A stretch of DNA of 64,000 nt from Hydrogenophilus sp. Its GTDB lineage: Bacteria; Pseudomonadota; Gammaproteobacteria; Burkholderiales; Thiobacillaceae. Every line of letters starts with the position of its first letter. The first letter of the stretch is position 1. The stretch is from positions 228,969 through 292,968 of the forward strand of contig DYFK01000001.1 of the NCBI GenBank assembly GCA_020725265.1, given 5' to 3'. Positions 42,535 to 56,866 of this stretch are shown one piece after another. Below the pieces are notes generated by a model. That model ran no database searches and had not been told where the DNA came from. It saw nothing but the letters and a program-made list of their open reading frames with translations. The position numbers were made by a program, and so were the translations under genes.

Positions 42535-43710
42535 ATGAACTCTTCACCGTCCCCCACCTTCCACCCCCGCTTCCAATACACCCACGCCATGCTGCGTGAC
42601 TTCGGCCTGATCGAGGCGGCGCGGGCGGTGATTACCGTGTTGCCCCTGCCGCCCGACCAGGAATTGCGCTTGCGCCAGGCGGCGCGGCAGCGGGCGACGC
42701 GCAATTCCACCCGCATCGAGGGCAATACGCTGAACTCCGAGGAAGTGGGGCGGGCGGTGATGGCGGTGGGCAAGAGCCAGACCGAGATGCAGCAGGAGGT
42801 GCGCGACTACTGACGGGCGCTGGAGTGGATCGAGGAACAGCTTGAGGCCCGACGCCCGCCGTCCGAGGAATTCATCCGCGAGTTGCACGCCATCGTCCTG
42901 GTGCGCGGCACCGGGCGGCGGGGGATGCGCAGCGATTACCGGGTGGAGGAGTGCCCGGTGGTGGATTCCGCCACCCGTCGCATCGACTACGCACCGCCCA
43001 TGCCCAAGGAGGTGCCGGTCTTGATGCGGGAACTCGTCGCCTGGTGGCGCGGCACGGAGGCGGCGGTGCTGCCGGGGCCGGTGCGGGCGGGGTTGCTGGC
43101 GCATCGCTTTGTCAGCATCCATCCCTTCAGTGACGGTAATGGCCGCACAGCTCGCGCCCTGGCGACCACCGAGCTCTGGCGCAGCGGGTACGACATGCGC
43201 GGCTTCCTCTCGCTTGAAGAGCACTACACGGCGGATTTGGGCGCGTATTACGACAACCTGCAAATGGGCTTGCCAGTGAACTACTACGATGGTCGGCATG
43301 ACCCGGACCACAGCCAGTGGCTGTGCTATTTTCTGGCGACCATGGCCCAGGCGGCGGAATCTCCACGGCGTCAGGCCATCGCGTTGTATGAGCCGGAACG
43401 CCGCCCCTCGCCCCCTTGGGAAAAGCTGCGACGGGTACAGCAGCAATTGCTGACCCGGCTCCTGATGCGCGGCATCGAGGAAGGCTGCTCAGCCATGACT
43501 TTCAGCCCGACGGACATGGTGGAGTGGTATGGCATATCCGCCACCACGGCGCGGGAATGGTTGACCAAGTGGCGGGAAGAAGCCTTCGTGGTTCCCGTCA
43601 AGGCGGACGCGCAACGAATCCGTGCCTACAACCTGTCGGAATACTGGATGGGATTGCTGGGTAACGTGCTGGTCAATGCAAGCAATAACGCTAGCAATAG
43701 CGCAAGCTGA
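42535..43710 (+). pseudogene. Fic-family protein gene interrupted by an in-frame TGA
   Basis: One frame runs from the ATG at 42535 to the TGA at 43708 except for a TGA at 42811-42813 (codon 93, between VRDY and RALEWIEEQ). The first part has the inhibitory-helix motif STRIEGN of class II Fic proteins. The second part has the catalytic HPFSDGNGRTAR loop and a C-terminal winged-helix-like domain. Fic enzymes transfer AMP from ATP to target hydroxyls. The single substitution (from CGA or TGG) suggests recent inactivation or a sequencing error. A TTG at 42883 could restart the catalytic half. Bases from about 43670 to 43860 are less GC-rich than the surroundings, consistent with acquired DNA. Confidence 0.8.
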
Positions 43711-43814: not shown

Positions 43815-45163
<1,349 letters not shown>

Positions 45164-45167
<4 letters not shown>

Positions 45168-46627
45168 GGTTCGGCTCCGGGGGCGGGTAGCTGGGCAGCG
45201 GGCAGGCGGACGCGGAACTCGGCGCCGCCGCCGGGCCGGTTTTCGACGCCGACGCAGCCACCGTGTTCCTCGACGATCTCGTGGACGATGAACAGGCCCA
45301 GGCCGCTGCCGTGGCCGACCGCCTTGGTGGTGAAAAAGGGGTCGAAAACGCGCTCGATCCGTTCCGGCGGGATGCCCGGCCCGCTGTCGGCGACGATCAG
45401 GTCGACCGCGGGGCGTTCCGGCCGGCATTGCCCGGGACGCGTCGGCGCTGCGCTGGCGGCCTCGGCGCGGATGACCAGCTCGCCGGCGTCGCCGATGGCA
45501 TCGAAGGCGTTGACCACCAGATTGAGCACGACCTGTTGCAGACGCGGCCGGTCGGCCAGCACGGTCAGGTGGTCGGCGATGTCGACGCGCACCTCGGTGC
45601 CGGCCGGACGCCGCGATTTCAGGAAGCGCAGGGTCTCGTCGACCAGATCGGCCAGCCGGACCGGCGCCGGTTTGAATTCGCGGTCGCCGGCGTAATCGAG
45701 CAGCGCGCGCACGATGCCGCGCGCGCGCAGGGTTTCGGCGTCGATGTCCTCGACCAGTTGCCGGTGAAAGTCCGTGACCGGGGAAACGCCGGTGGCGGCG
45801 AAGGCCGGGTCCTCCCTGAGGATCTGGGCCGACGATGAGATGTTGGAAAGCGGGTTGTTCAGTTCATGGGCGACGCCGGACAGCAGGGTGCCGAGCGAGG
45901 CCAGCTTTTCCGCGCGCACCAGGGTGTGCTGGCGCCGCTCCAGCTCATCGAGCACGTGGTTGAAGGCCGCCGCCAGCGACACCAGCTCCCGCTCCGGGCT
46001 GTCCAGCGCCAGCCGCGCGAGCTGACCGTCGGCGACAGCTTCCATGCGCGTCTCCATCGCCTTGAGCGGCGCGGCGATCCGGCGCGCCAGCGCGAACCCG
46101 GTCAGCGCCAGCAGGATCGCGACCACGCCCAGCGAGGCCAGCAGCGCGCGTCGATGCCCTGCCAGGGCGGCGTTGAGCGATTCGCGTTCGAGCGCGGACA
46201 GGCGCTCGCCGACCGTGACCAGACGATTGCCGAGCACGCGCACCGCCTCGGCCCGCGATTCCTCGTCCGGTTGCCCGACATGCGCCGCCATCGCGTCGAG
46301 ATAGCGGCCAAGGTCCGCGCGCAAGCCGGCGGCAGCGCCGGCGCCGGCCAGGCTGTCGAGGGCATTGGCGTCGCGCGCCAGCAGCTCGCGGGCGCGGGCG
46401 GCGTAGCGGGCGTGGTCTTCCAGGTCGCGCGCCTGGCGGTACAGCAGATGGTTTTTCTCGAACCGGCGCATCTCCAGGGTCGCGTCGACCAATTCGGCGA
46501 CCTTGCTGCCCTCGCGCGCCTTGTCGGCGATCCGGTCGAGCTCGATCAGCGCCACCGCCGACAAGCCGACGATGAGCAGGGCCAGCGCGAGGTAGACGAG
46601 AACGATCTTGGCTTGCAGGGAATGCAT
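45164..46627 (-). CDS. Sensor histidine kinase of an NtrC-type pair
   Basis: A 487-residue membrane kinase. Membrane helices at about 7-29 and 162-181 enclose a helical periplasmic sensor of about 130 residues with conserved-looking FEKNHLLYRQ, a style seen in kinases with a four-helix CHASE3-like or HBM sensor. HAMP follows, then H254 in GVAHELNNPLSNI and the ATP-binding boxes NLVVNAFDAIGD, DSGPGI and GSGLGLFIVHEI. The ligand is unknown. Position next to SulP suggests that it senses an anion or a carbon/sulfur signal, which is inference only. Confidence 0.92.
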
Positions 46628-46727: not shown

Positions 46728-46743
46728 TGGCACGGTTGCTGCT
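46728..46743 (+). promoter_or_regulatory. Sigma-54 promoter of the usp-sulP genes
   Basis: TGGCACGGTTGCTGCT matches TGGCACG-N4-TTGCW with one mismatch (C for T) and correct GG-GC spacing. It reads toward sulP. Confidence 0.7.
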
Positions 46744-46776: not shown

Positions 46777-46977
46777 ATGCCCGACTCGTCGCAACGAACT
46801 CCACCACGAACCGTTCAACGCACCCTGCTCGCCGAACGTCTGCGCAGCGCCCGCTGGCTGGGCTGGGAAAGCCCGGATCACGCGGCCGGGACGATGGCCC
46901 AGGCGACGCCGGTCCGGTCGTGGTCGTGGTCCTGGATCTGGTCCTGGCGTCCGCGCCGAGCCCGCGTCGCCGGATGA
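46777..46977 (+). CDS. Doubtful small ORF upstream of the usp-like gene
   Basis: A 66-residue frame (MPDSSQRTPPRTVQRTLLAE at the start) with an odd WSWSWIWSW run and an Arg-rich end. It overlaps the next gene by ATGA, which hints at translational coupling. I recognise no family. The Trp/Ser run comes from a simple GTCGTG/GTCCTG repeat, so it may be chance reading. If it is not real, 46628-46973 is a 346-base leader holding the regulatory sites listed. Confidence 0.3.
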   Translation: MPDSSQRTPPRTVQRTLLAERLRSARWLGWESPDHAAGTMAQATPVRSWSWSWIWSWRPRRARVAG

Positions 46978-47345
46978 AACGCCGCGTGGTCGTGGCCTTG
47001 CGGCCGGTTTCTCCGGTCGAACGCCTGCTGGCGGTGGGCGCGGCGCTGTGCCGGCGTCTGGACGCCGAGCTCGAAGTCCTGATCGATCCCGCCGGCATGG
47101 ATGAGCCAGCGGTCGAAACCCGGCTGGCCGGACTCGAACGCGATGGCCTGACCTGCCACCTGACGCCGGCCGCCGACCTGAGTGCGCGCGTGGTGGTCGA
47201 ACACGCGCGTCGCCACGAATGCGTGACCACCGTCGTGGTCGGCAATCCGGCTGCCTGGTCGGCCGATGGCGGCGACCCCTGGGCCCGGCTCGAATGCCCG
47301 CTGGTGGCGGCATCCGACCACCCCGACTTCCCTGAAAAAAAGTAG
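46974..47345 (+). CDS. Universal-stress-protein-like protein
   Basis: A 123-residue protein with a USP-type alternation: RRVVVALRPVSPVERLLAVG (first strand and helix), AELEVLIDPA, ARVVVEHARRHECVTTVVVG and a final PLVAASDHPDFPEKK. The canonical ATP-binding G2xG9xGS motif is not evident, so it is a divergent, perhaps non-nucleotide-binding form. Eight bases before sulP; probably an accessory or regulatory partner of the transporter. Confidence 0.6.
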   Translation: MKRRVVVALRPVSPVERLLAVGAALCRRLDAELEVLIDPAGMDEPAVETRLAGLERDGLTCHLTPAADLSARVVVEHARRHECVTTVVVGNPAAWSADGGDPWARLECPLVAASDHPDFPEKK

Positions 47346-47352
47346 TGTCCCA

Positions 47353-49077
47353 ATGAACAAGTTCGCGCGTTTCCTTCCGTTCCTGCGCTGGTTTCCGATG
47401 TCCGGCGACAGCGTCAAGGCCGACTTCATGGCCGGCATCACCGTCGCCCTGGTGCTGATCCCGCAATCCATGGCCTACGCGCAACTGGCCGGCCTGCCCG
47501 CCTATTACGGCCTGTACGCGGCCTTCCTGCCGGTCGCGGTGGCCGCCCTGTGGGGTTCCTCGCACCAGCTCGGCACCGGCCCGGTGGCGGTGGTCTCGCT
47601 GCTGACGGCATCCAGCCTGGCGACGCTGGCGGCGCCCGGCTCGGAAACCTTCGTCGCGCTGGCGATCCTGCTCGCGCTCCTGGTCGGCGTCATCCAGTTG
47701 CTGCTGGGCGTGTTCAAGCTGGGCGTCATCGTCAATTTCCTGTCGCATCCGGTCATCGTCGGCTTCACCAATGCCGCCGCCATCATCATCGCGCTGTCGC
47801 AGGTGTCCAAGCTGTTCGGCGTGCCGATGGGACGCAGCGAGCATTTCATCGACGACATCCTCGGCGTCCTCGGCCTGATCGGGGATACCCATCCACCCAC
47901 CCTGGTCATGGGCGCGCTCGCCATCGCGATCATGTCGGGCCTGCGTCGCTATCGCCCGCGCTGGCCCGGCGTGCTGGTCGCGGTGCTGGTGACCACCGTG
48001 GCGTCCTGGCTGCTCGACTTCGAGCGTGGTCTCGGCGGCGCCGTGGTCGGCGCCATTCCCCAGGGCCTGCCGGCGCCAAGCCTGCCGACCTGGGAGTCCG
48101 CCAATCTCGGCATGCTGCTGCCGACGGCCCTGGTGATCTCGCTGGTCGGATTCATGGAGGCGATTTCCATCGCCAAGGCGATCGCGGCCAAGACCCGCCA
48201 GCGGCTGGACCCCAATCAGGAGCTGATCGGGCAGGGCCTGTCCAACCTGGTCGGCGCGATGACCCAGGCATTCCCGGTATCCGGTTCGTTTTCGCGCTCG
48301 GCGGTGAACATGAACGCCGGCGCCCGCACCGGCCTGAGCTCGGTGTTCACCGCGCTGTTCGTGATGCTGACGCTGCTGTTCCTGACGCCGTTGCTGTACC
48401 ACCTGCCGCAGGCGGTGCTGGCCGCGATCATCATCATGGCGGTCATGGGTCTGGTGAATTTCGCCGCGATCCGCCACGCCTGGCAGGCCAACCGCCACGA
48501 TGGCGCCGCCTCCGTGGTCACCTTCGTCGCCACGCTGGCGTTCGCGCCGCACCTGGACAACGGCATCCTGGTCGGCGCCGGACTGGCGCTGCTGCTGTTC
48601 CTGCTGCGCACCATGAAGCCGCGGGTCGCCCGGCTCGGACGCTACAAGGACGGCACCCTGCGCGACGTACGCGTGAACCCGGATCTGCCGACCAGCGAAC
48701 ACGTGGTGGCGATGCGCTTCGACGGCCAGCTTTATTTCGCCAACGTCGCCTATTTCGAGGACACCGTGCTGGAAGCCCTGGCCGACCAGCCGAAGGCCCG
48801 TTTCATGCTCATCGTCGGCGACGGCATCAACCAGCTCGACGCCTCCGGCGAGGAGGTCGTCCACCATCTGGTCGAGCGCCTGCGCGGCAACGGCGTCGAG
48901 CTGGTGTTCTCGGGGCTCAAGAAACAGGTGCTGGACGTCATGCGCGCCACCCACCTGTTCGAACTGATCGGCCAGGACAACATCTTCGCCACCGAGGATC
49001 AGGCCCTGGCCGCGATCTACGAACGCCTGGGCGAGGCCGCCGACGACGACCTGTTCTGCCGGGTGAAGCCGGCATGA
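47353..49077 (+). CDS. SulP-family anion transporter with STAS domain
   Basis: A 574-residue SLC26/SulP protein. About fourteen membrane segments (residues 25-415) include the family signature PQSMAYAQLAGLPAYYGLYA at about 38-57 and SVSGSF-like AFPVSGSFSRSAVN. A cytoplasmic STAS domain (about 440-560) follows. Members import sulfate, bicarbonate or dicarboxylates, usually with protons or sodium. The substrate cannot be read here. Its location next to an Ehr-like proton- or sodium-pumping complex makes bicarbonate worth testing. Confidence 0.92.
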   Translation: MNKFARFLPFLRWFPMSGDSVKADFMAGITVALVLIPQSMAYAQLAGLPAYYGLYAAFLPVAVAALWGSSHQLGTGPVAVVSLLTASSLATLAAPGSETFVALAILLALLVGVIQLLLGVFKLGVIVNFLSHPVIVGFTNAAAIIIALSQVSKLFGVPMGRSEHFIDDILGVLGLIGDTHPPTLVMGALAIAIMSGLRRYRPRWPGVLVAVLVTTVASWLLDFERGLGGAVVGAIPQGLPAPSLPTWESANLGMLLPTALVISLVGFMEAISIAKAIAAKTRQRLDPNQELIGQGLSNLVGAMTQAFPVSGSFSRSAVNMNAGARTGLSSVFTALFVMLTLLFLTPLLYHLPQAVLAAIIIMAVMGLVNFAAIRHAWQANRHDGAASVVTFVATLAFAPHLDNGILVGAGLALLLFLLRTMKPRVARLGRYKDGTLRDVRVNPDLPTSEHVVAMRFDGQLYFANVAYFEDTVLEALADQPKARFMLIVGDGINQLDASGEEVVHHLVERLRGNGVELVFSGLKKQVLDVMRATHLFELIGQDNIFATEDQALAAIYERLGEAADDDLFCRVKPA

Positions 49078-49097
49078 GGACGACGTTCCCGACGTTT

Positions 49098-49295
49098 CTA
49101 TTCGTCGCCGCGCCGGGCGGCGGCGGTCAGCCAGTCCGGCGGTTCGTGGCCATCGGCGTTGTCGATGATGTACTGGCGGATCAACCGGCGCACCACCTGC
49201 GAGGGCGTCAGATCCTTGCGCGCGCAGATTTCCTCGAACAACTGCTTCTTCCTGGGATCGATGAGCACGGTCAGGCGGGCGGTACGGTTTTCCAT
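49098..49295 (-). CDS. Ribbon-helix-helix transcriptional regulator
   Basis: A 65-residue protein: a short strand ARLTVLIDPRKKQLFEEICA followed by two helices (TPSQVVRRLIRQYII), the MetJ/Arc/CopG fold. It has no toxin partner beside it. It faces the hyf-like operon, with a perfect palindrome in the shared promoter region, so it is the likely repressor of itself and of that operon. Convergent with sulP. Confidence 0.8.
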   Translation of the reverse strand: MENRTARLTVLIDPRKKQLFEEICARKDLTPSQVVRRLIRQYIIDNADGHEPPDWLTAAARRGDE

Positions 49296-49322
49296 GACGG
49301 GACACGCGTGGCAGTGATTTTG

Positions 49323-49341
49323 ATGTTAATGATATTAACAT
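49323..49341. promoter_or_regulatory. Palindromic operator candidate for the RHH regulator
   Basis: ATGTTAAT-GAT-ATTAACAT: perfect 8-bp arms, AT-rich in a GC-rich genome. It lies 28 bases before the RHH gene and ends where the hyf-side -35 begins. Confidence 0.65.
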
Positions 49342-49369
49342 TGTGTTCCACATGGGTGATTTCTAGAAT
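49341..49369 (+). promoter_or_regulatory. Predicted promoter of the hyf-like operon
   Basis: TTGTGT (49341-49346) and TAGAAT (49364-49369), 17-base spacing, directly beside the palindrome so that a bound repressor would block it. Confidence 0.45.
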
Positions 49370-49389
49370 CGCATGCAATCCATTCGGTG

Positions 49390-51450
49390 ATGGCCATCGT
49401 GTTTCCCTCTGGGTTTCCCACAGTGTTTCCCCCTGATTCCACGCCCGTCGAATTCGCCTGGGCGGGCGTGCTGTTCTGGCTGGCGCTCGCCGCCGCCGCG
49501 CCGTTCCTGCGCCGCGCGCGCGGCCTGTTGGCGTTGGCGCCGGCCCTGTGCGCGCTCGGCGCGCTGGCGATGGCCGCGATCGGCCTGGCCGGACTGCTGG
49601 CGCCGGCCTCGGCCATCGTGCTGCCGTTCGGCCTGCCCGACCTGCCCTTCCATCTGCGCCTGGACGCGCTGTCCGGTCTCTTCCTGCTGTTGCTGGGCGC
49701 GGCCGGCTTCGGCGTCAGCCTATACGCCACCGGCTATTTCCGGCACATGGAAACCGGCGCGCTGGCGATGGTGATGCTCTGGTATCCGTTGTTCCTGGCC
49801 GGCATGGCCATGGTCATCCTGGCCGACGATGCCTATGCCTTCATGGTCGCCTGGGAGGTGATGGCGCTGGCCTCCTATTTCCTGGTGACCACCGACCACG
49901 CCATTCCCGACATCCGCCGTGCCGGTTTTCTCTATCTGCTGATCGCGCATATCGGCGCGGTCGCCCTGCTGCTGGCGTTCGGCGTGCTTCAGGGCGGCGC
50001 CGTCGGCGAGATGGAGGCGTACACCTTCGCCGCCATGCGCGACGCCGAGCAGGCGCCGTTCTGGGCTTCGGTCGCGTTCCTGCTGGCGTTGTTCGGGTTC
50101 GGCGCCAAGGCCGGCCTGGTGCCCATGCACGTGTGGCTGCCGGAAGCGCATCCGGCGGCGCCATCGCCGGTGTCGGCGCTGATGTCCGGGGTGATGCTGA
50201 AGACCGCCATCTACGGCCTGCTGCGCGTCAGCTTCGACCTGCTCAACGTCCAGCCCGGCTGGTGGGGCACGCTGGCGCTGGCGCTGGGACTGGTCACCGC
50301 CCTTTACGGCGTCATCTTCGCCGCCGTGCAGTCGGACATGAAACGGTTGCTGGCGTGGTCGTCGATCGAGAACATCGGCATCATCGTCGCCGGCTTCGGC
50401 CTGACCCTGATCTTTCATGCCGACGGCAAGGGCGCGCTGGCGGCGCTGACCCTGACCGCGCTGCTCTACCACGCGCTCAACCACGCCTTCTTCAAGGGCC
50501 TGCTGTTCGCCGGCGCCGGCGCGGTCCTGCACGCCACCGGCGAACGGCGCATGGGCTTTCTCGGCGGCATGATCCGGTTCATGCCATGGACCGCCTGGCT
50601 GACCCTGATCGGCGCGCTCGCCATCGCCGGCCTGCCGCCGCTCAACGGTTTCGTCTCCGAATGGCTGTTGTTGCAGGCCTTCCTGCTGACGCCAGGCCTG
50701 AGCCAGCCCTACCTGAACATGGTCATCCCGGTCGCCGCCGCCGCCGTGGCCCTGGCCGCCGCGCTGGCCGCCTACGTGATGGTCAAGTTCTTCGGCGTCG
50801 TCTTCCTCGGCCAGCCGCGCGCGCCGATCCCCGGGCAACTCCACGAGGCCGGCTGGCCGGAACGGCTGGGCATGCTCTGGTTGGCCGCCGGCTGCGTGCT
50901 GCTGGGTCTGTTTCCGCCCCAGGTCATCGCGCTGCTGGCGCCGGTGACGCGGTTGCTGACCAACCAGACCCTGGTCAACGACGCCGGCGGCGCGGCCGGC
51001 TGGTTGCTGCTGGCGCCGGTTTCCTCGGAGCGCGCCAGTTACGCGCCGCTGATCTTCCTGCTGGTGGTTCTGGTCGTGCTGCTGCTGGTGTTCGTCTGGG
51101 TACGACGTGTCCATCACGGCCGGGCTCGCCGGGCCGATCCCTGGGACTGCGGCTTCCCGGAACAGGACGCGCGCATGCAGGACAGCGCCGAGGGTTTCGG
51201 TCAGCCGATCCGTCAGATCTTCGACGGCTTCATGCGCGTGGAGCGGGAAACCCCGGACCCGTTCGACCCACATCCGCAATACCGGGGCGACAGTCGCGAC
51301 AAGCTCTGGCTGCTGCTGTATCAGCCGATCGCCGATCTCGCCGCCCGGCTTTCCGCGCTGGTCGGCCGGCTCCAGCATGGCCGTATCCAGTGGTACCTGA
51401 TCTACAGCTTCGTCACCCTGATCTTCCTGCTCGTCTTCGTGACACGGTGA
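49390..51450 (+). CDS. Hyf/Ehr-type antiporter-like subunit (HyfB/NuoL-like)
   Basis: A 686-residue membrane protein with about sixteen helices of the proton-conducting membrane transporter family. FMVAWEVMALASYFLV and GFGAKAGLVPMHVWLPEAHP contain the conserved glutamate and lysine of the ion channel; NHAFFKGLLFAGAGAV holds the second half-channel lysine. The C-terminal soluble piece (from about residue 570, DPWDCGF) is as in HyfB. It is the first gene of a six-gene operon. GTG at 49387 directly precedes the ATG chosen. Confidence 0.9.
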   Translation: MAIVFPSGFPTVFPPDSTPVEFAWAGVLFWLALAAAAPFLRRARGLLALAPALCALGALAMAAIGLAGLLAPASAIVLPFGLPDLPFHLRLDALSGLFLLLLGAAGFGVSLYATGYFRHMETGALAMVMLWYPLFLAGMAMVILADDAYAFMVAWEVMALASYFLVTTDHAIPDIRRAGFLYLLIAHIGAVALLLAFGVLQGGAVGEMEAYTFAAMRDAEQAPFWASVAFLLALFGFGAKAGLVPMHVWLPEAHPAAPSPVSALMSGVMLKTAIYGLLRVSFDLLNVQPGWWGTLALALGLVTALYGVIFAAVQSDMKRLLAWSSIENIGIIVAGFGLTLIFHADGKGALAALTLTALLYHALNHAFFKGLLFAGAGAVLHATGERRMGFLGGMIRFMPWTAWLTLIGALAIAGLPPLNGFVSEWLLLQAFLLTPGLSQPYLNMVIPVAAAAVALAAALAAYVMVKFFGVVFLGQPRAPIPGQLHEAGWPERLGMLWLAAGCVLLGLFPPQVIALLAPVTRLLTNQTLVNDAGGAAGWLLLAPVSSERASYAPLIFLLVVLVVLLLVFVWVRRVHHGRARRADPWDCGFPEQDARMQDSAEGFGQPIRQIFDGFMRVERETPDPFDPHPQYRGDSRDKLWLLLYQPIADLAARLSALVGRLQHGRIQWYLIYSFVTLIFLLVFVTR

Positions 51451-51454
51451 ACCC

Positions 51455-52399
51455 ATGACCACCGGCATCCTTCTGCAAATCACCCAGACCCTGCTGGCCA
51501 TCCTGCTGGCGCCGCTGCTGATGGGCTGGGTCAACCAGTGCCGCGCCTGGTTGCAGGGCCGCGCCGCGCCGCCGATCACCCAGCCTTACCGGGTACTGCG
51601 CAAGCTGTTCCACAAGGACGCGGTGATCGCCCACGACGCCAGCCCGCTGTTCCGCTTCGCGCCCTACATGATCTTCGCCTGCATGGCGCTGGCCGCCGGC
51701 ATCGTGCCGACCCTGGCCAACGATCTGCCATTCTCGCCGGCCGCCGACGTCATCGCGCTGGTCGGCATCTTCGCGCTGGCGCGAGTGTTCCTGGCGCTGG
51801 CGGCGATGGATATCGGCACTTCGTTCGGCAGCCTCGGCGCGCGCCGGGAAATGCTGGTGTCGTTCCTGGCCGAGCCGGCCCTGCTGATGGTGTTCTTCAC
51901 CGCCAGCCTGATCTCGCGCTCGACCGAGCTGCCGGTGATCGTCGAGGCCCTCGCGCACAAGGAATTCGTGATCTACCCGAGCCTGGCCTTCGCGGCGGTG
52001 GCGTTCTGGATGGTGTCGACGGCGGAAAACGCGCGCATTCCCATCGACAACCCGACCACCCACCTGGAGCTGACCATGATCCACGAGGCCATGATCCTGG
52101 AATATTCCGCCCGCCATCTGGCCCTGATCGAGTGGGCGGTGGCGCTCAAGCTGTTCACCTATTCCGCGCTCGGCATCGCCCTGTTCGTGCCCTGGGGCAT
52201 CGCCCCGGCCGGCGACCTGGCGGCCTTGCCGCTGGCGCTGCTGGCGCTGGTCGCGAAGATGGCCGTCGGCGGCGCCGGCCTGTCCCTGCTGGAGGCTGTT
52301 TCCGCCAAGGTCCGCCTGTTCCGCGCGCCGGAGTTCCTGGGCACCGCCTTCCTGCTGGCGGTGCTGGGCATGCTCACCCATTTCCTGCTGGAGGTCTGA
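51455..52399 (+). CDS. HyfC/NuoH-like membrane subunit
   Basis: A 314-residue protein with eight membrane helices, related to NuoH/HycD. Loop residues near the quinone/catalytic module are present: YRVLRKLFHKDAVIAHDASP and ENARIPIDNPTTHLELTMIHE, with the conserved glutamates. It anchors the soluble catalytic-type module (large and small subunits) to the membrane arm. Four bases separate it from the first subunit gene. Confidence 0.9.
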   Translation: MTTGILLQITQTLLAILLAPLLMGWVNQCRAWLQGRAAPPITQPYRVLRKLFHKDAVIAHDASPLFRFAPYMIFACMALAAGIVPTLANDLPFSPAADVIALVGIFALARVFLALAAMDIGTSFGSLGARREMLVSFLAEPALLMVFFTASLISRSTELPVIVEALAHKEFVIYPSLAFAAVAFWMVSTAENARIPIDNPTTHLELTMIHEAMILEYSARHLALIEWAVALKLFTYSALGIALFVPWGIAPAGDLAALPLALLALVAKMAVGGAGLSLLEAVSAKVRLFRAPEFLGTAFLLAVLGMLTHFLLEV

Positions 52400-52400
52400 G

Positions 52401-53078
52401 ATGACGGAGATGGATACGGCCCTGACCTACCCCCTGCAAGTGGTCAACCTGCTGGCGGCGCTGCTGCTGCTGATCTCGTTCGCGATGCTCTCGCAGCGCC
52501 GCGTCGTCGGCCTGATCACGCTGTTCGCCTGGCAGGGCGCGGCGCTGGCGCTGTCGACGGCGATCGTGGCCTGGTCGACCGGCCAGCACCATCTGTACTA
52601 CTCGGCGGCGCTGACGCTGGCGCTCAAGGTCATCGCCATGCCCTGGTTCTTCTACCGGCTGGTGCGCAGGCTGGACGTCGACCGCGACGTCGAGCCGATG
52701 ATCAACATCCCGACCACCATGCTGATCGGCATCGCGCTGGTGATCTTCGCGTTCAACCTGGCGACGCCGATCTCGCAGATGGCCGGCACGGTCACCCGCG
52801 CGACCCTGGGCATCGCCATGGCCAGCGTGCTGCTGGCCTTCCTGATGATGATCACGCGCGCCAAGGCGATCCCTCAGGTGATCGGCTTCCTGGCCATGGA
52901 AAACGGCCTGTTCTTCGCCGCCACCAGCGCCACCTACGGCATGCCGCTGGTGGTCGAGCTGGGCGTGGCGCTGGACGTCATGGTCGCCGTGTTCGTGCTC
53001 GGCATCTTCTTTTTCCAGATCCGCGAGACCTTCGATTCGCTGGACCTGAAACACATGGAAAAACTGAAGGAAAAATGA
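52401..53078 (+). CDS. HyfE/NuoK-like membrane subunit
   Basis: A 225-residue protein with about six to seven helices. LALKVIAMPWFFYRL and FLAMENGLFFAATS carry the lysine and glutamate expected in the NuoK/HyfE ion path. It follows hyfC-like directly (1-base gap). A 174-base gap with a direct repeat separates it from the next subunit gene. Confidence 0.88.
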   Translation: MTEMDTALTYPLQVVNLLAALLLLISFAMLSQRRVVGLITLFAWQGAALALSTAIVAWSTGQHHLYYSAALTLALKVIAMPWFFYRLVRRLDVDRDVEPMINIPTTMLIGIALVIFAFNLATPISQMAGTVTRATLGIAMASVLLAFLMMITRAKAIPQVIGFLAMENGLFFAATSATYGMPLVVELGVALDVMVAVFVLGIFFFQIRETFDSLDLKHMEKLKEK

Positions 53079-53117
53079 TTCCCGATCGCCATCCACACCA
53101 TTATTCGTCGCCGATCG

Positions 53118-53252
53118 CGTTTCCCCCCGGGGGGAAGTCAGTTCCTTCGGATCGGCCGGGCGGAACTGAGATGAAACAGCCCCCTTGCTCGCCAAGCTCG
53201 TTTCCCCCCAAGGGGGAAGTCAGTTCCTTCGGATCGGCCGGGCGGAACTGAC
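53118..53252. repeat. 53-bp direct repeat (two copies) between hyfE-like and hyfF-like genes
   Basis: Copy 1 at 53118-53170 and copy 2 at 53199-53252 differ only in the centre of a C-run/G-run hairpin and at the last bases. Each copy has CCCCCC/GGGGG pairing and a second dyad CAGTTCC...GGAACTG. The second copy ends at the start of the next gene and may supply or mask its ribosome site. Confidence 0.8.
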
Positions 53253-54716
53253 ATGGAACTCTACTGGGTACTCGGAATTCCGCTGGCCGGCGGTCTGTTC
53301 CTGGCGCTGTGGGGAAGCCGCGAGCACGCGCCGGAGATCAACGCCCTGTTCAGTCTGCTGACGCTGATCGCGGCCGGCCTGCTGACCGCGCGCATCGTCG
53401 AGGAAGGCCCGATCATGGTCGCCGACGGCTGGTTCTTCATCGATTCCTTCAACGTCTTCCTGGTCGCGCTGACCGCCTTCGTGGCCTTCACCACGGCGCT
53501 GTTCTCGCGCCCGTACATGCGCATCGAGCGCGAGCACGGCCGCCTGACCGCGACGCGTCTGCGGCTGTATCACAGCAGTTACCAGATCTTCATCGCCGCC
53601 ATGTTGCTGGCGTTGACCACCAACAACATGGGCATCCTGTGGGTGTCGATGGAAGGCGCCACCCTGGCGACCGTGCTGCTGGTCTCGCTGTACCGCACGC
53701 CGGCCTCGCTGGAAGCGGCCTGGAAATACTTCATCCTGTGCGGCGTCGGCATCGCTCAGGCGCTGTTCGGCACCATCCTGCTCTACTTCGCGGCCGAGAA
53801 GATCCTCGGTTCCGGCGGCACCGCGCTGCTGTGGACGCACCTGAACGGCGTCAAGGAACAGCTCGAACCGACCGTGCTGCAACTGGCCTTCGTGTTCCTG
53901 CTGGTCGGCTATGGCACCAAGGTCGGCCTGGCGCCGCTGCACAACTGGCTGCCGGATGCCCACGCCGAGGGTCCGACGCCGATTTCCGCCGTGCTCTCCG
54001 GACTGTTGCTCAACGTCGCCCTGTACGCCGTGATGCGCTCCAAGGTGCTGGTGGATGGCGCGCTCGGCACCGGCGATGGCAACGGCATGGCCGGCAACCT
54101 GATGATGGGCTTCGGCCTGCTGTCGGTGGTGGTGGCGGCCTTCCTGATCAAGCGCCAGACCGACGTCAAGCGCATGTTCGCGTACTCCTCCATCGAGCAC
54201 ATGGGCCTGGTCACCTTCGCCTTCGGCATGGGTGGCGCGGTCGCCAGCTTCGCCGGCCTGCTGCACATGACCATGCATTCCCTGACCAAGTCCGCCATCT
54301 TCTTCGCGGTCGGCCACGCCACCCAGAGCGCCGGCACCCAGGCCATGGACGGCATCCGTGGCCTGATCAGGACCAACCCGACCATCGGCTGGGGGCTGAT
54401 GCTGGGCACCATCGCCATCCTCGGCGTGCCGCCGTTCGGCGTGTTCGCCAGCGAGTTCCTGATCATCACCACGGCGATGCACCAGCACCCCTGGGCGACG
54501 CCTTTCCTGCTGATCGCGCTGGGCGTCGCCTTCGCCTCGATCTTCGGCAAGGTCCAGCCGATGGTGTTCGGCGAGACCACCCTGCCCCGGCTGCCATACC
54601 AGCCGGCCCTGATGCCGGTATTCATCCATCTCGGCCTGGTGCTGATGCTGGGGCTGTTCGTGCCGCCCTATCTGGCGGACTGGTACCGCCAGGCCGCCGC
54701 CTTGCTGGGGGGTTGA
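53253..54716 (+). CDS. HyfF/NuoN-like antiporter-type membrane subunit
   Basis: A 487-residue protein with about fourteen helices, the second antiporter-like subunit. Channel residues are in WVSMEGATLATVLLV, VGYGTKVGLAPLHNWLPDAHAE and HSLTKSAIFFAVGH. GVPPFGVFASEFLI is family-typical. With the HyfB-like protein it gives the complex two putative ion pumps. Its ATG overlaps the end of the 53-bp repeat. Confidence 0.9.
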   Translation: MELYWVLGIPLAGGLFLALWGSREHAPEINALFSLLTLIAAGLLTARIVEEGPIMVADGWFFIDSFNVFLVALTAFVAFTTALFSRPYMRIEREHGRLTATRLRLYHSSYQIFIAAMLLALTTNNMGILWVSMEGATLATVLLVSLYRTPASLEAAWKYFILCGVGIAQALFGTILLYFAAEKILGSGGTALLWTHLNGVKEQLEPTVLQLAFVFLLVGYGTKVGLAPLHNWLPDAHAEGPTPISAVLSGLLLNVALYAVMRSKVLVDGALGTGDGNGMAGNLMMGFGLLSVVVAAFLIKRQTDVKRMFAYSSIEHMGLVTFAFGMGGAVASFAGLLHMTMHSLTKSAIFFAVGHATQSAGTQAMDGIRGLIRTNPTIGWGLMLGTIAILGVPPFGVFASEFLIITTAMHQHPWATPFLLIALGVAFASIFGKVQPMVFGETTLPRLPYQPALMPVFIHLGLVLMLGLFVPPYLADWYRQAAALLGG

Positions 54717-54717
54717 C

Positions 54718-56280
54718 ATGCCGAACCAGACATCCGCTTCCACCGAGGCCATCCGGCGTCGACGCCTGAGCGCCGAAGCGCTGCCCGAATTCGCCCGCGA
54801 GGTGAAGGATGCGGGTGGCCAGTTGATCGCGCTGTGGGGGTCGGACGACCGCCATCTGGACGCGGGCTTCGCCGTGCACGCTGCTTTCCTGACCGGCGCC
54901 GGGCTGGTCTGGGTCGACGCCGCGCTGGCCGCCGACGATCCCGTCCATCCCGACCTGGCGGCGATTTTTCCGCAGGCCGGGCGCATGCAGCGCGCCACCT
55001 TCGATCTTCTGGGAATCCGCGCGGCGGGCGCGGTGGATACCCGGAAATGGCTGCGCCACAACGCCTGGTCGGAAAACCACTACCCGTTGCGCAAGGATTT
55101 TGTTTGGCAAGTCGCGGGGGCAGAGGCGTCACCACTTGCCACTCACCACTCGCCACTCCCTCAGGTAGACGGCTACCCCTTCATCCGGGTGGAAGGCGAC
55201 GGCGTCCATGAAATTCCGGTCGGCCCCATCCATGCCGGCACCATCGAACCGGGCCATTTCCGTTTCTCGATCATTGGCGACCGCATCCTCAAGCTGGAGG
55301 AGCGCCTGGGCTACACCCATCAGGGCGTGGAAAAGCGCTTCGAAGGGCTCGACCCCGACCAGGGCGCCCGGCTCGCCGGCCGGGTTTCCGGCGACAGCCA
55401 TTCCGCCTTCACCTGGGCCTACTGCATGGCCGTGGAAACCGCCACGGCGACGCCGGTGCCGGAGCGCGCCCTCTGGCTGCGCGCGCTGTTCCTGGAAATC
55501 GAGCGCGTTGCCAACCATCTCGGCGACCTCGGCTATCTCGGCAACGATGTCGCCCTGGCCTTCGGCTTCATGCAGTTCTGGCGCCTCAAGGAAGACTGGC
55601 TGCGCCTGTGCGCGCGGCTATTCGGCCACCGCTACCTGTTCGACCGGATCGTGCCCGGCGGCGTCGCCGTCGATCTCGATGCCGCCGGTGGCGCGGAACT
55701 GGCCGTGCTGGCCGAGCGCATGGCCGGAGAGGTCCGGGAACTGAAGGCCATTTACGACGAACACGCCGGCTTGCAGGATCGCTTCGCCAACACCGGCATC
55801 GTCAGGCCGGAACTGGCCGCGCGCCTGGGTCTGACCGGCCTGGCCGGACGCGCCAGCGCCCAGGCCTGGGACGCGCGCGCGCAGTTCCCGATCCGCCCCT
55901 ACGACCAGCTCGACGTCAACATGGCCACCGCCCGGCGCGGCGACGTGCTGGCGCGCGCGGAGGTCCGTTTCGCCGAGATTTTCGAATCCCTGCGCCTGAT
56001 CCGCGACATCCTGGCGCGGCTGCCCGACGGGCCGATCCGGGTAAAACTGGCGCCGACCAGCGGGCCAGCGGAAGGGCTCGGCTGGGTGGAAGGCTGGCGC
56101 GGCGAAGTGCTGGTCGCGCTACGCCTGAACGCCGACGGCAGACTCGACCGCGCGCATCCGCACGACCCATCCTGGCGCGCCTGGCCGTTACTGGAGGTGG
56201 GCGTGCTCGGCAACATCGTTCCCGATTTCCCGCTCATCAACAAATCCTTCAACCTGAGCTACAGCGGACAGGATCTCTGA
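54718..56280 (+). CDS. HyfG/NuoCD-like large subunit without [NiFe] cysteines (Ehr type)
   Basis: A 520-residue fusion of a NuoC-like part (about 1-130) and a NuoD/hydrogenase-large-subunit part. Residues 152-210 (FIRVEGDGVHEIPVGPIHAG, GYTHQGVEKRFEG) are clearly of this family. The first metal-ligand pair, normally C-x-x-C, reads S224-G-D-S227 in RVSGDSHSAF, and the C-terminus (NKSFNLSYSGQDL) has no cysteine. So no [NiFe] site can form, as in Ehr complexes. Residues 138-148 (SPLATHHSPLP) come from a short CACTC-type DNA repeat inserted in frame. Its substrate is unknown; a quinone-like or redox-free role is possible. Confidence 0.85.
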   Translation: MPNQTSASTEAIRRRRLSAEALPEFAREVKDAGGQLIALWGSDDRHLDAGFAVHAAFLTGAGLVWVDAALAADDPVHPDLAAIFPQAGRMQRATFDLLGIRAAGAVDTRKWLRHNAWSENHYPLRKDFVWQVAGAEASPLATHHSPLPQVDGYPFIRVEGDGVHEIPVGPIHAGTIEPGHFRFSIIGDRILKLEERLGYTHQGVEKRFEGLDPDQGARLAGRVSGDSHSAFTWAYCMAVETATATPVPERALWLRALFLEIERVANHLGDLGYLGNDVALAFGFMQFWRLKEDWLRLCARLFGHRYLFDRIVPGGVAVDLDAAGGAELAVLAERMAGEVRELKAIYDEHAGLQDRFANTGIVRPELAARLGLTGLAGRASAQAWDARAQFPIRPYDQLDVNMATARRGDVLARAEVRFAEIFESLRLIRDILARLPDGPIRVKLAPTSGPAEGLGWVEGWRGEVLVALRLNADGRLDRAHPHDPSWRAWPLLEVGVLGNIVPDFPLINKSFNLSYSGQDL

Positions 56281-56332
56281 GCCCCCACTCTCCACTCTCC
56301 ACTCTCCACTCCCTACTCCCTACCACGCCCCC

Positions 56333-56866
56333 ATGGCCACCCACCTCCTCCTCCGGAAAATCCTCAAGACCGGCATCGTTTCCGAGCCGGCGCCCGCCGC
56401 CGATCCCGACCAGCGCGTCCGGGAACAGGCGCTGCACGCGGAAATCCTCAAGGTGTTCGGCCAGGCGGTCGCGATCCGTCATGTCGACGCCGGTTCCTGC
56501 AATGGCTGCGAGCTGGAAATCCATGCCCTCAACGGCCCCCACTACAACATCGAGGGCCTGGGCGTGAAGTTCGCGGCCAGCCCCCGGCATGTCGACGTGC
56601 TGCTGGTGACCGGGCCGGTGTCCCGTCACCTGGAGACGGCGCTGAAACGCACTTACGAGGCGACACCGGAACCGAAATGGGTGGTGGCGATGGGCGATTG
56701 CGGATGTGGTCGTGGCGAGATCGGCGGCCTGTTCGGCCCCGGCTACGCCACCGTCGGCAGGGTCGCCGAGGTGATTCCGGTGGATGTCGAGGTGCCCGGT
56801 TGCCCGCCCACGCCCACCGCGCTGTTGCAGGGCATTCTGGCGGCGGTCGGCGGCGTCGGGAAATAA
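56333..56866 (+). CDS. HyfI/NuoB-like small subunit with one 4Fe-4S cluster
   Basis: A 177-residue protein related to NuoB/HycG. C56 and C59 (AGSCNGCELEI), C123/C125 (GDCGCGRG) and C157 (VPGCPPTP) supply the ligands of the N2-type proximal cluster, so an electron path exists although the large subunit lacks nickel. RHVDVLLVTGP and LLQGILAAVGG are family-typical. It is the last gene of the operon; no HyfA, HyfD or HyfH homologue is present. The leader (56281-56332) has three ACTCTCC heptamers. Confidence 0.9.
   Translation: MATHLLLRKILKTGIVSEPAPAADPDQRVREQALHAEILKVFGQAVAIRHVDAGSCNGCELEIHALNGPHYNIEGLGVKFAASPRHVDVLLVTGPVSRHLETALKRTYEATPEPKWVVAMGDCGCGRGEIGGLFGPGYATVGRVAEVIPVDVEVPGCPPTPTALLQGILAAVGGVGK

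Follow-up and report, generated by a model that had tools for sequence, protein, structure and literature searches.

The subject of this analysis is a gene cluster on the forward strand (positions 46974-56866) of a 64,000-nucleotide stretch of Hydrogenophilus sp. DNA (contig DYFK01000001.1), referred to below as the window. The genome that holds it has a size of 3.3 Mb and is 96.65% complete. Open reading frames, Pfam and NCBIfam models resolve the cluster into a small gene resembling those of universal stress proteins (Usp), a gene for a SulP anion permease with a STAS domain, and six genes of the HyfB, C, E, F, G and I types (Table 1). The original prediction, made from the sequence without database searches, had described a six-gene complex of two antiporter-like, one NuoH-, one NuoK- and one NuoB-like protein and a large subunit, and the frames and family models agree with it. 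The HyfE-like protein stayed below the cut-off of its model (136 bits) and was without a Pfam match.

Table 1. Features of the gene cluster and its upstream region in the window.
Feature	Position	Strand	Basis and remarks
NtrC-type response regulator with sigma-54 activator domain	43815..45167	-	PF00072, PF00158, PF02954; start set at 45167, longest frame from 45428
Histidine kinase with HAMP domain, divergent from usp-sulP	45164..46627	-	HisKA, HATPase_c, HAMP
Candidate sigma-54 (-24/-12) promoter TGGCACGGTTGCTGCT	46728..46743	+	One mismatch; conserved in relatives
Usp-like small protein, 123 aa	46974-47345	+	Open frame, conserved in relatives
SulP anion permease with STAS domain, 574 aa	47353-49077	+	PF00916, PF01740; TIGR00815 above cut-off
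HyfB-like antiporter-type subunit	49387-51450, start possibly 49423	+	PF00361; NF005086 above cut-off; E145, K229, K260, K358, E413 kept
HyfC/NuoH-like subunit	51455-52399	+	PF00146; acidic residues kept
HyfE-like (NuoK-type) subunit	52401-53078	+	NF008556 92.6 bits, below cut-off; equivalent place in relatives
HyfF-like antiporter-type subunit	53253-54716	+	PF00361; NF005045 above cut-off; E134, K223, K346, E401 kept
NuoC+NuoD-type large subunit without nickel cysteines (HyfG/EhrL-like)	54718-56280	+	PF00329, PF00346; motif counts, trees, fold
NuoB-type small subunit (HyfI-like), N2-type cysteines C56, C59, C123, C157	56333-56866	+	PF01058; cysteine counts

Related loci were collected in set A (L007-L086) and set B (L100-L179, L248 and L249), which overlap in genomes (e.g. 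L021 and L101) and are not additive; the gap counts pool both sets. In the relatives, the six Hyf-type genes are separated by median gaps of -4, 1, 1, 6 and 10 bp, counted over 144 to 155 pairs, which indicates an operon-like arrangement. The distance between the end of sulP and the longest hyfB frame is 309 bp in the window, compared to a median of 94 bp over the 39 pairs of neighbouring sulP and hyfB genes in the relatives. The hyfE-hyfF gap of the window (53079-53252) is also long, with 174 bp, whereas the 150 pairs of the relatives have a median of 1 bp.

The large subunit and its lost nickel site

By sequence, the closest solved relative of the large subunit is HycE of the E. coli formate hydrogenlyase (E = 9.5e-58), which is also the closest solved fold of the predicted structure (template modelling score of 0.87, 30% identity). 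The two structure models reached predicted local distance difference test (pLDDT) values of 71 and 84. Residues 155-191 and 516-520 of the second model lie below 50, and for this reason no claim is made on the geometry of the pocket.

In the alignment to HycE, RVCGIC is replaced by RVSGDS and DPCYSCT by NLSYSGQ, so that the places of the C-terminal nickel cysteines fall on S514 and G517. The SGDS in place of CxxC and the cysteine-free C-terminus, both read from the sequence beforehand, were thus confirmed. All four nickel cysteines are replaced, and the replacing residues are near-invariant among 82 large subunits, namely those of 80 related loci (one with two copies) and of the window: S224 and S514 were found in 81 sequences each, D226, Y515 and G517 in all 82. 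Since these residues are so strongly conserved, the nickel site is not in decay but has been swapped for another fixed set of residues. The protein ends approximately where HycE is cut during maturation. With this sequence, the large subunit cannot bind a NiFe centre in the manner known from hydrogenases. The ligands of the quinone head in NuoD of complex I (His38 and Tyr87 in Thermus) are absent as well; the residues aligned to them by way of HycE are I176 and G225.

Small subunit, membrane subunits and electron input

The small subunit matches MbhJ (E = 2.4e-35) and HycG (E = 2.3e-32). Its cysteines C56, C59 and C157 were kept in all 74 rows of the alignment. Of 143 rows, 133 show the complete pattern of CNGCE, GxC and GCPP; among the 10 exceptions, the eight that were inspected read CNACE or CNGCD and retain the cysteines. 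Charged residues corresponding to the ion path of complex I were kept in more than 95% of the rows for the HyfB-, HyfF- and HyfC-like subunits (113, 118 and 114 rows, respectively, including the window and E. coli). Judged by this conservation, the complex is a machine under selection that is able to hold one Fe-S cluster, and it should be able to move ions.

Genes for HyfA and HyfH had been reported as missing, and probes with both E. coli proteins gave the same picture: one of 203 loci, the window included, was matched at E <= 1e-3, with no match in the window stretch, and in a control of four true hydrogenase loci HyfH was matched in 4/4 and HyfA in 0/4. The sole match (L011) lies on the opposite strand beyond hyfI, outside the operon. 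No NADH-module subunits of complex I were found in the operon by open frames and Pfam; the separate nuo operon of this genome is located on contig C25.

Family placement and distribution

In a tree of 142 rows, which carries a tool warning of long branches, a branch with a support of 89 has the six rows with an active motif on one of its sides, while 131 rows of the nickel-free family together with L239 lie on another branch (support 98). In a second tree of 75 rows, the two E. coli hydrogenases were separated with 100/100. The large subunit is therefore placed apart from the sampled active hydrogenases in both trees; a position among them had been named as the result that would speak against the original prediction.

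With its homology to group 4 hydrogenases, its absent nickel cysteines and its antiporter- and NuoH-like subunits, the complex matches the Ehr type, as originally suggested, so far as this can be judged from sequence. The Ehr-type complex itself is already known. By description, it resembles the Ehr complexes of comammox Nitrospira, ammonia-oxidising archaea, Geobacter and Riflemargulisbacteria, which are membrane complexes similar to group 4 hydrogenases and complex I without the nickel-binding motif; their role is called unknown or unproven (PMC10284858, PMC10432482, PMC6349859, PMC7894505). The complex studied here differs from those descriptions in having six subunits, none of them of the ferredoxin type, and a sulP neighbour. 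For Acidithiobacillus thiooxidans, hydrogenase-like clusters with the motifs SGD[TS][TS][AV][GA]Y and NLSYSGHDL have been printed, the same pair as in the nickel-free family found here; the accessible text leaves their function open and names no link to a permease or carbonic anhydrase (PMC6002666). The B, C, E, F, G and I subunits are homologous to those of the E. coli formate hydrogenlyase and hydrogenase-4, whereas the window complex is without the nickel cysteines, HyfA/HyfH and HyfD.

With a score limit of about 400 bits, 80 genomes of an even draw of 300 from the order carry the complex. Six further genomes showed only matches of 210-311 bits, including active hydrogenases and other types without nickel. 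In a draw from the phylum, 63 of 398 genomes carried it (limit of 380 bits, plus one fragment), 31 of them from one family. Relatives with 53-58% identity were also found on plasmid or megaplasmid records of Cupriavidus, Variovorax and Burkholderia. Plasmid 3 of Variovorax sp. PBL-E5 (L290) carries a full Ehr operon, with a second, diverged pair of large and small subunit genes and a gene for a universal stress protein just upstream. The loci L240-L243 represent a second nickel-free type, in which a hyfB-like gene follows hyfI and does not precede hyfC; two of the four large subunits contain RVSG[IV]D, and three of the four contain EASFGL...AG near the C-terminus.

The SulP permease and the Usp-like protein

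The permease was identified by PF00916 (E = 2.2e-109), the STAS domain (E = 6.6e-17) and TIGR00815 (447 bits against a cut-off of 380), in agreement with the SulP assignment made from the sequence. The stress-like label given to its 123-aa neighbour is one of appearance only: no Pfam model matched at E <= 1. This small protein can be aligned with 10 relatives.

Among 26 genomes, the number of SulP genes ranged from none to about six, with four in the genome of the window (table read by eye, with some genes present as two pieces). The window SulP shares 59% and 72% identity, in two aligned segments, with the SulP of the carboxysome operon of its own genome, and 68% and 58% with a further one that is divergent from a gamma-carbonic anhydrase gene. 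The SulPs at Ehr loci belong to two subfamilies with 34-35% mutual identity. Many linked SulPs of about 707 aa (L007:2115-4244 and kin) contain a charged insertion of about 130 aa within the membrane domain, which is absent from the window SulP. Another gene of the own genome (L097:6718-9147, contig C22) encodes, by Pfam, an 809-aa fusion of SulP, STAS and cobalamin adenosyltransferase; free-standing relatives of the latter domain follow hyfI in L110, L111, L114, L115, L118, L122, L128 and L136. The small genes after hyfI were first candidates for SulP and were rejected, as the partner in the fused probe is the cobalamin adenosyltransferase domain. The probe was trimmed to its SulP part ahead of the neighbour counts.

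Permease and carbon genes beside the Ehr operon

For the analysis of the neighbourhood, loci with full flanks (at least 4 kb before hyfB and at least 3 kb after hyfI) were used, and neighbours were counted within 6 kb of the operon ends. The even draw from the order comprised 82 loci, 58 of them with full flanks. An anion permease was found near 19 of these 58 (SulP 18, TauE 3, DASS 3). For SulP this corresponds to p of about 1e-18 or 6e-14 under a chance of 1.6% or 3%. Because the loci are related, changes of the linkage label were counted on a tree in addition. The 75-row tree, consisting of 16 linked, 57 unlinked and two E. coli rows, required six changes, five of which are forced by supported branches; loci without full flanks and large subunits identical to those of the best-hit set were excluded, so not all 19 linked loci are included. 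A chance neighbourhood of SulP and the complex was rejected on the p values and these changes. In the phylum draw, 40 loci were fetched out of 54 matches that lie outside the order and exceed 380 bits; one of the 26 with full flanks carried a SulP gene (L282). The pairing of sulP and Ehr genes, for which a survey of genomes had been proposed and whose absence elsewhere had been named as a refutation of the original prediction, thus exists in other genomes, and the linkage is real but limited.

The arrangement varies among the linked loci. In L178, which is a row of the linkage tree, a SulP of 28% identity lies 4.6 kb away on the other strand. SulP and DASS are on the other strand in L123, and SulP follows the operon in L117. 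The neighbours of unlinked loci were by eye of the housekeeping type (metG, ubiA, ubiD, recG and purine genes).

In a subset of the relatives, genes for gamma-carbonic anhydrase, CsoSCA-like proteins, cbb proteins or DabA join the cluster, and TauE or DASS join or replace SulP. Ten of the 58 order loci carried gamma-carbonic anhydrase (7), CsoSCA-like (4) or cbbQ and cbbO genes (1 locus), and a permease was present at all 10. In the best-hit set, 47 of 80 loci had full flanks; 33 of these had a permease or DabA, and 19 a carbonic anhydrase or cbb gene, all of them also with a permease (gamma-carbonic anhydrase 13, CsoSCA-like 8, cbbO 8, cbbQ 5, DabA 2). An overlap of 4 bp between sulP and the gamma-carbonic anhydrase gene was found in 7 of 10 adjacent pairs, and the latter gene precedes hyfB by 3-22 bp in 5 of 14 cases.

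TauE, DabA, the RuBisCO large subunit, CsoSCA_cat (E = 1.1e-6) and CitMHS/DASS were identified by Pfam or NCBIfam; CbbS, Q, O and R were assigned by eye. For the gamma-carbonic anhydrase, Pfam gives hexapeptide models only, and the closest solved structures are gamma-carbonic anhydrases (E = 1.3e-31). The TauE proteins, which are of similar length to SbtA, were considered as such and rejected by Pfam. A 350-aa protein encoded after hyfI (L017:12389-13444 and homologues elsewhere) contains the partial CsoSCA catalytic domain, apparently without the shell-protein regions; going by its domain content, it is possibly a free carbonic anhydrase. In L007 (12136-21502) and L086 (12360-21505), DabA and a DabB-like gene, flanked by further antiporter-type genes, directly follow the Ehr operon; the DabA/DabB identity was obtained by Pfam for L007, and the pair of L086 is homologous.

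Regulatory elements upstream of the cluster

The candidate promoter between the divergent NtrC-type pair and usp-sulP is the only match to the sigma-54 consensus with at most one mismatch in the 64 kb. At up to two mismatches, five matches were found in the window compared to 12.4 in shuffled sequences. Weak matches are therefore meaningless, and the claim is based on the one-mismatch site and its conservation. In 18 relatives in which a cluster kinase is divergent from the next gene, each gap contained 10 to 12 of the 12 positions of the site, a score that was reached in 0 to 5% of the shuffled gaps. One of the 18 (L083) has a distant kinase only and no SulP. A homologue of the NtrC-type regulator was found upstream of the operon in many relatives. 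The sigma-54-type site with a divergent NtrC-type pair before this cluster is new here. A scan for sigma-70 promoters and terminators gave nothing above shuffled sequences. Further upstream (42535-43710), a stop separates two open frames that share a reading frame and look by eye like one Fic-type protein.

Association with carbon fixation

A strong RuBisCO match was found in 56 of the 80 genomes of the order draw with the complex and in 54 of the 220 without it (odds ratio 7.2, scoring as negative 19 genomes whose matches are weak and RuBisCO-like). The phylum draw gave 37/63 and 56/335, respectively (odds ratio 7.1), and outside the one dominant family RuBisCO was present in 15 of 32 complex-bearing genomes. 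Furthermore, 17 of 18 genomes with a permease-linked locus had RuBisCO compared to 21 of 37 unlinked ones (p = 0.005).

The genome of the window contains two genes for RuBisCO large subunits, by eye of forms I and II, one of which is truncated by the contig end. On the same contig as the Ehr operon and 63-73 kb downstream of it lies a carboxysome operon with CsoS2, CsoSCA, bacterial microcompartment proteins, SulP, SbtA and the PII-type SbtB. DabA was not found in this genome at E <= 1e-40.

Possible function of the cluster

In our best reading, in which we place slightly less than even confidence, the locus is a regulated module for inorganic carbon uptake in an autotroph, in which an ion pump without nickel powers or balances the entry of bicarbonate. 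SulP would import HCO3-, as its gene context suggests, and the Ehr complex would move H+ or Na+ across the membrane. Electrons might reach the cluster of the small subunit from a soluble carrier or quinol and drive this ion movement, and the ion gradient and pH balance would power or stabilise the accumulation of HCO3- for RuBisCO and the carboxysomes. A role of the module in carbon uptake is probable, while redox-driven pumping as the coupling is a more tentative proposal, and less likely than not.

Bicarbonate is favoured because of the gamma-carbonic anhydrase, CsoSCA-like and cbb neighbours, the co-occurrence with RuBisCO and the related SulP in the carboxysome locus of the same genome. 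There are known systems of a similar kind. SulP is likewise linked with carbonic anhydrase or carboxysome genes in the can-sulP cluster of Acidithiobacillus ferrooxidans (PMC6458275) and at the carboxysome locus of Thiomicrospira pelophila (PMC12628692); by gene context, SulP is paired here with an Ehr complex, in contrast to both. The T. pelophila carboxysome-locus SulP is described there as rescuing E. coli lacking carbonic anhydrases (PMC12628692). A membrane subunit of the complex I type in a carbon-uptake setting is also known from DAB/DAC (DabA and DabB; PMC13144422), from which the present system differs by its six Hyf-type subunits and the missing DabA. In the accessible portions of the open-access full-text literature, with subscription journals mostly outside the scope, no paper was found that connects a complex of this type with SulP, carbonic anhydrase or the uptake of carbon.

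The original suggestion of a joint, ion-gradient-driven anion uptake, perhaps of bicarbonate, is partly supported: the three lines of evidence just named favour bicarbonate as the anion, and a number of observations weigh against the suggestion and against our reading. No permease was found near 39 of the 58 order-draw loci and 25 of the 26 phylum-draw loci, and the window operon has no carbonic anhydrase or cbb gene within 6 kb. A strong RuBisCO match is absent from 24 of the 80 complex-bearing genomes. DabA is not associated with the complex (17/80 and 46/220 in the order draw, odds ratio 1.0), and the RuBisCO and DabA co-occurrence statistics ignore kinship. The cluster encodes no electron-input subunit. 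The closest solved SulP is the plant SULTR4;1 (E = 3.3e-105), far above 6ki1 (BicA; 3.2e-30), and the window SulP reached 144 bits against a cut-off of 880 for the BicA equivalog of NCBIfam. In addition, a second SulP of T. pelophila reportedly failed to rescue E. coli (PMC12628692).

Two competing explanations stand out among the alternatives, a general redox pump and a sulfur-anion module. The loci without a permease, together with the complex-bearing genomes lacking RuBisCO, would be expected if Ehr were a general redox-linked ion pump functionally unconnected to the permease, with the shared neighbourhood brought about by autotrophic growth or a common regulator. We consider this rather unlikely, given the tight spacing of the gamma-carbonic anhydrase and permease genes, the repeated gain or loss of the linkage on the tree and the single conserved promoter-type site ahead of usp-sulP.

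The cluster could also be a sulfur-oxyanion module of sulfur oxidisers, in which SulP, or at other loci TauE or DASS, transports sulfate or sulfite and Ehr supplies the ion gradient. All three permease families include sulfur-anion carriers, many linked loci come from Thiobacillus and Sulfuricella, and the position of SULTR4;1 as the nearest solved SulP keeps this explanation alive. It is nevertheless improbable, since carbonic anhydrase or cbb genes occur at 10 of the 19 linked order-draw loci (sulfur-oxidation genes were not searched for) and the related SulP of the same genome is part of the carboxysome operon, next to SbtA.

A formate-linked complex, as proposed for Ehr of Geobacter and Riflemargulisbacteria, would fit the formate hydrogenlyase as closest solved relative; it is very improbable here, as no formate dehydrogenase gene was recognised beside the window operon (the loci of the relatives were not searched). 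An active NiFe hydrogenase, despite the HycE-like fold at 30% identity, is contradicted by the replacement of all four nickel cysteines and by the position apart from the six active-motif rows in the trees, and deserves next to no credence.

Returning to the carbon-uptake module, a bolder version can be formulated, which we regard as unlikely in its full extent: an Ehr pump, an anion carrier (SulP, TauE or DASS) and a gamma-carbonic anhydrase would act as one machine and represent a new kind of energised carbon uptake, in which respiration is coupled directly to the capture of CO2/HCO3- and the former NiFe pocket is now a conserved Ser/Asp site. The carbon-uptake reading would give one widespread Ehr-type family a concrete, testable role in CO2 uptake. 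If it is true, the complex-I-type machines that serve in CO2-concentrating systems would include, besides NDH-1MS and DAB, relatives of hydrogenases, which would bear on carbon fixation in sulfur- and iron-oxidising communities.

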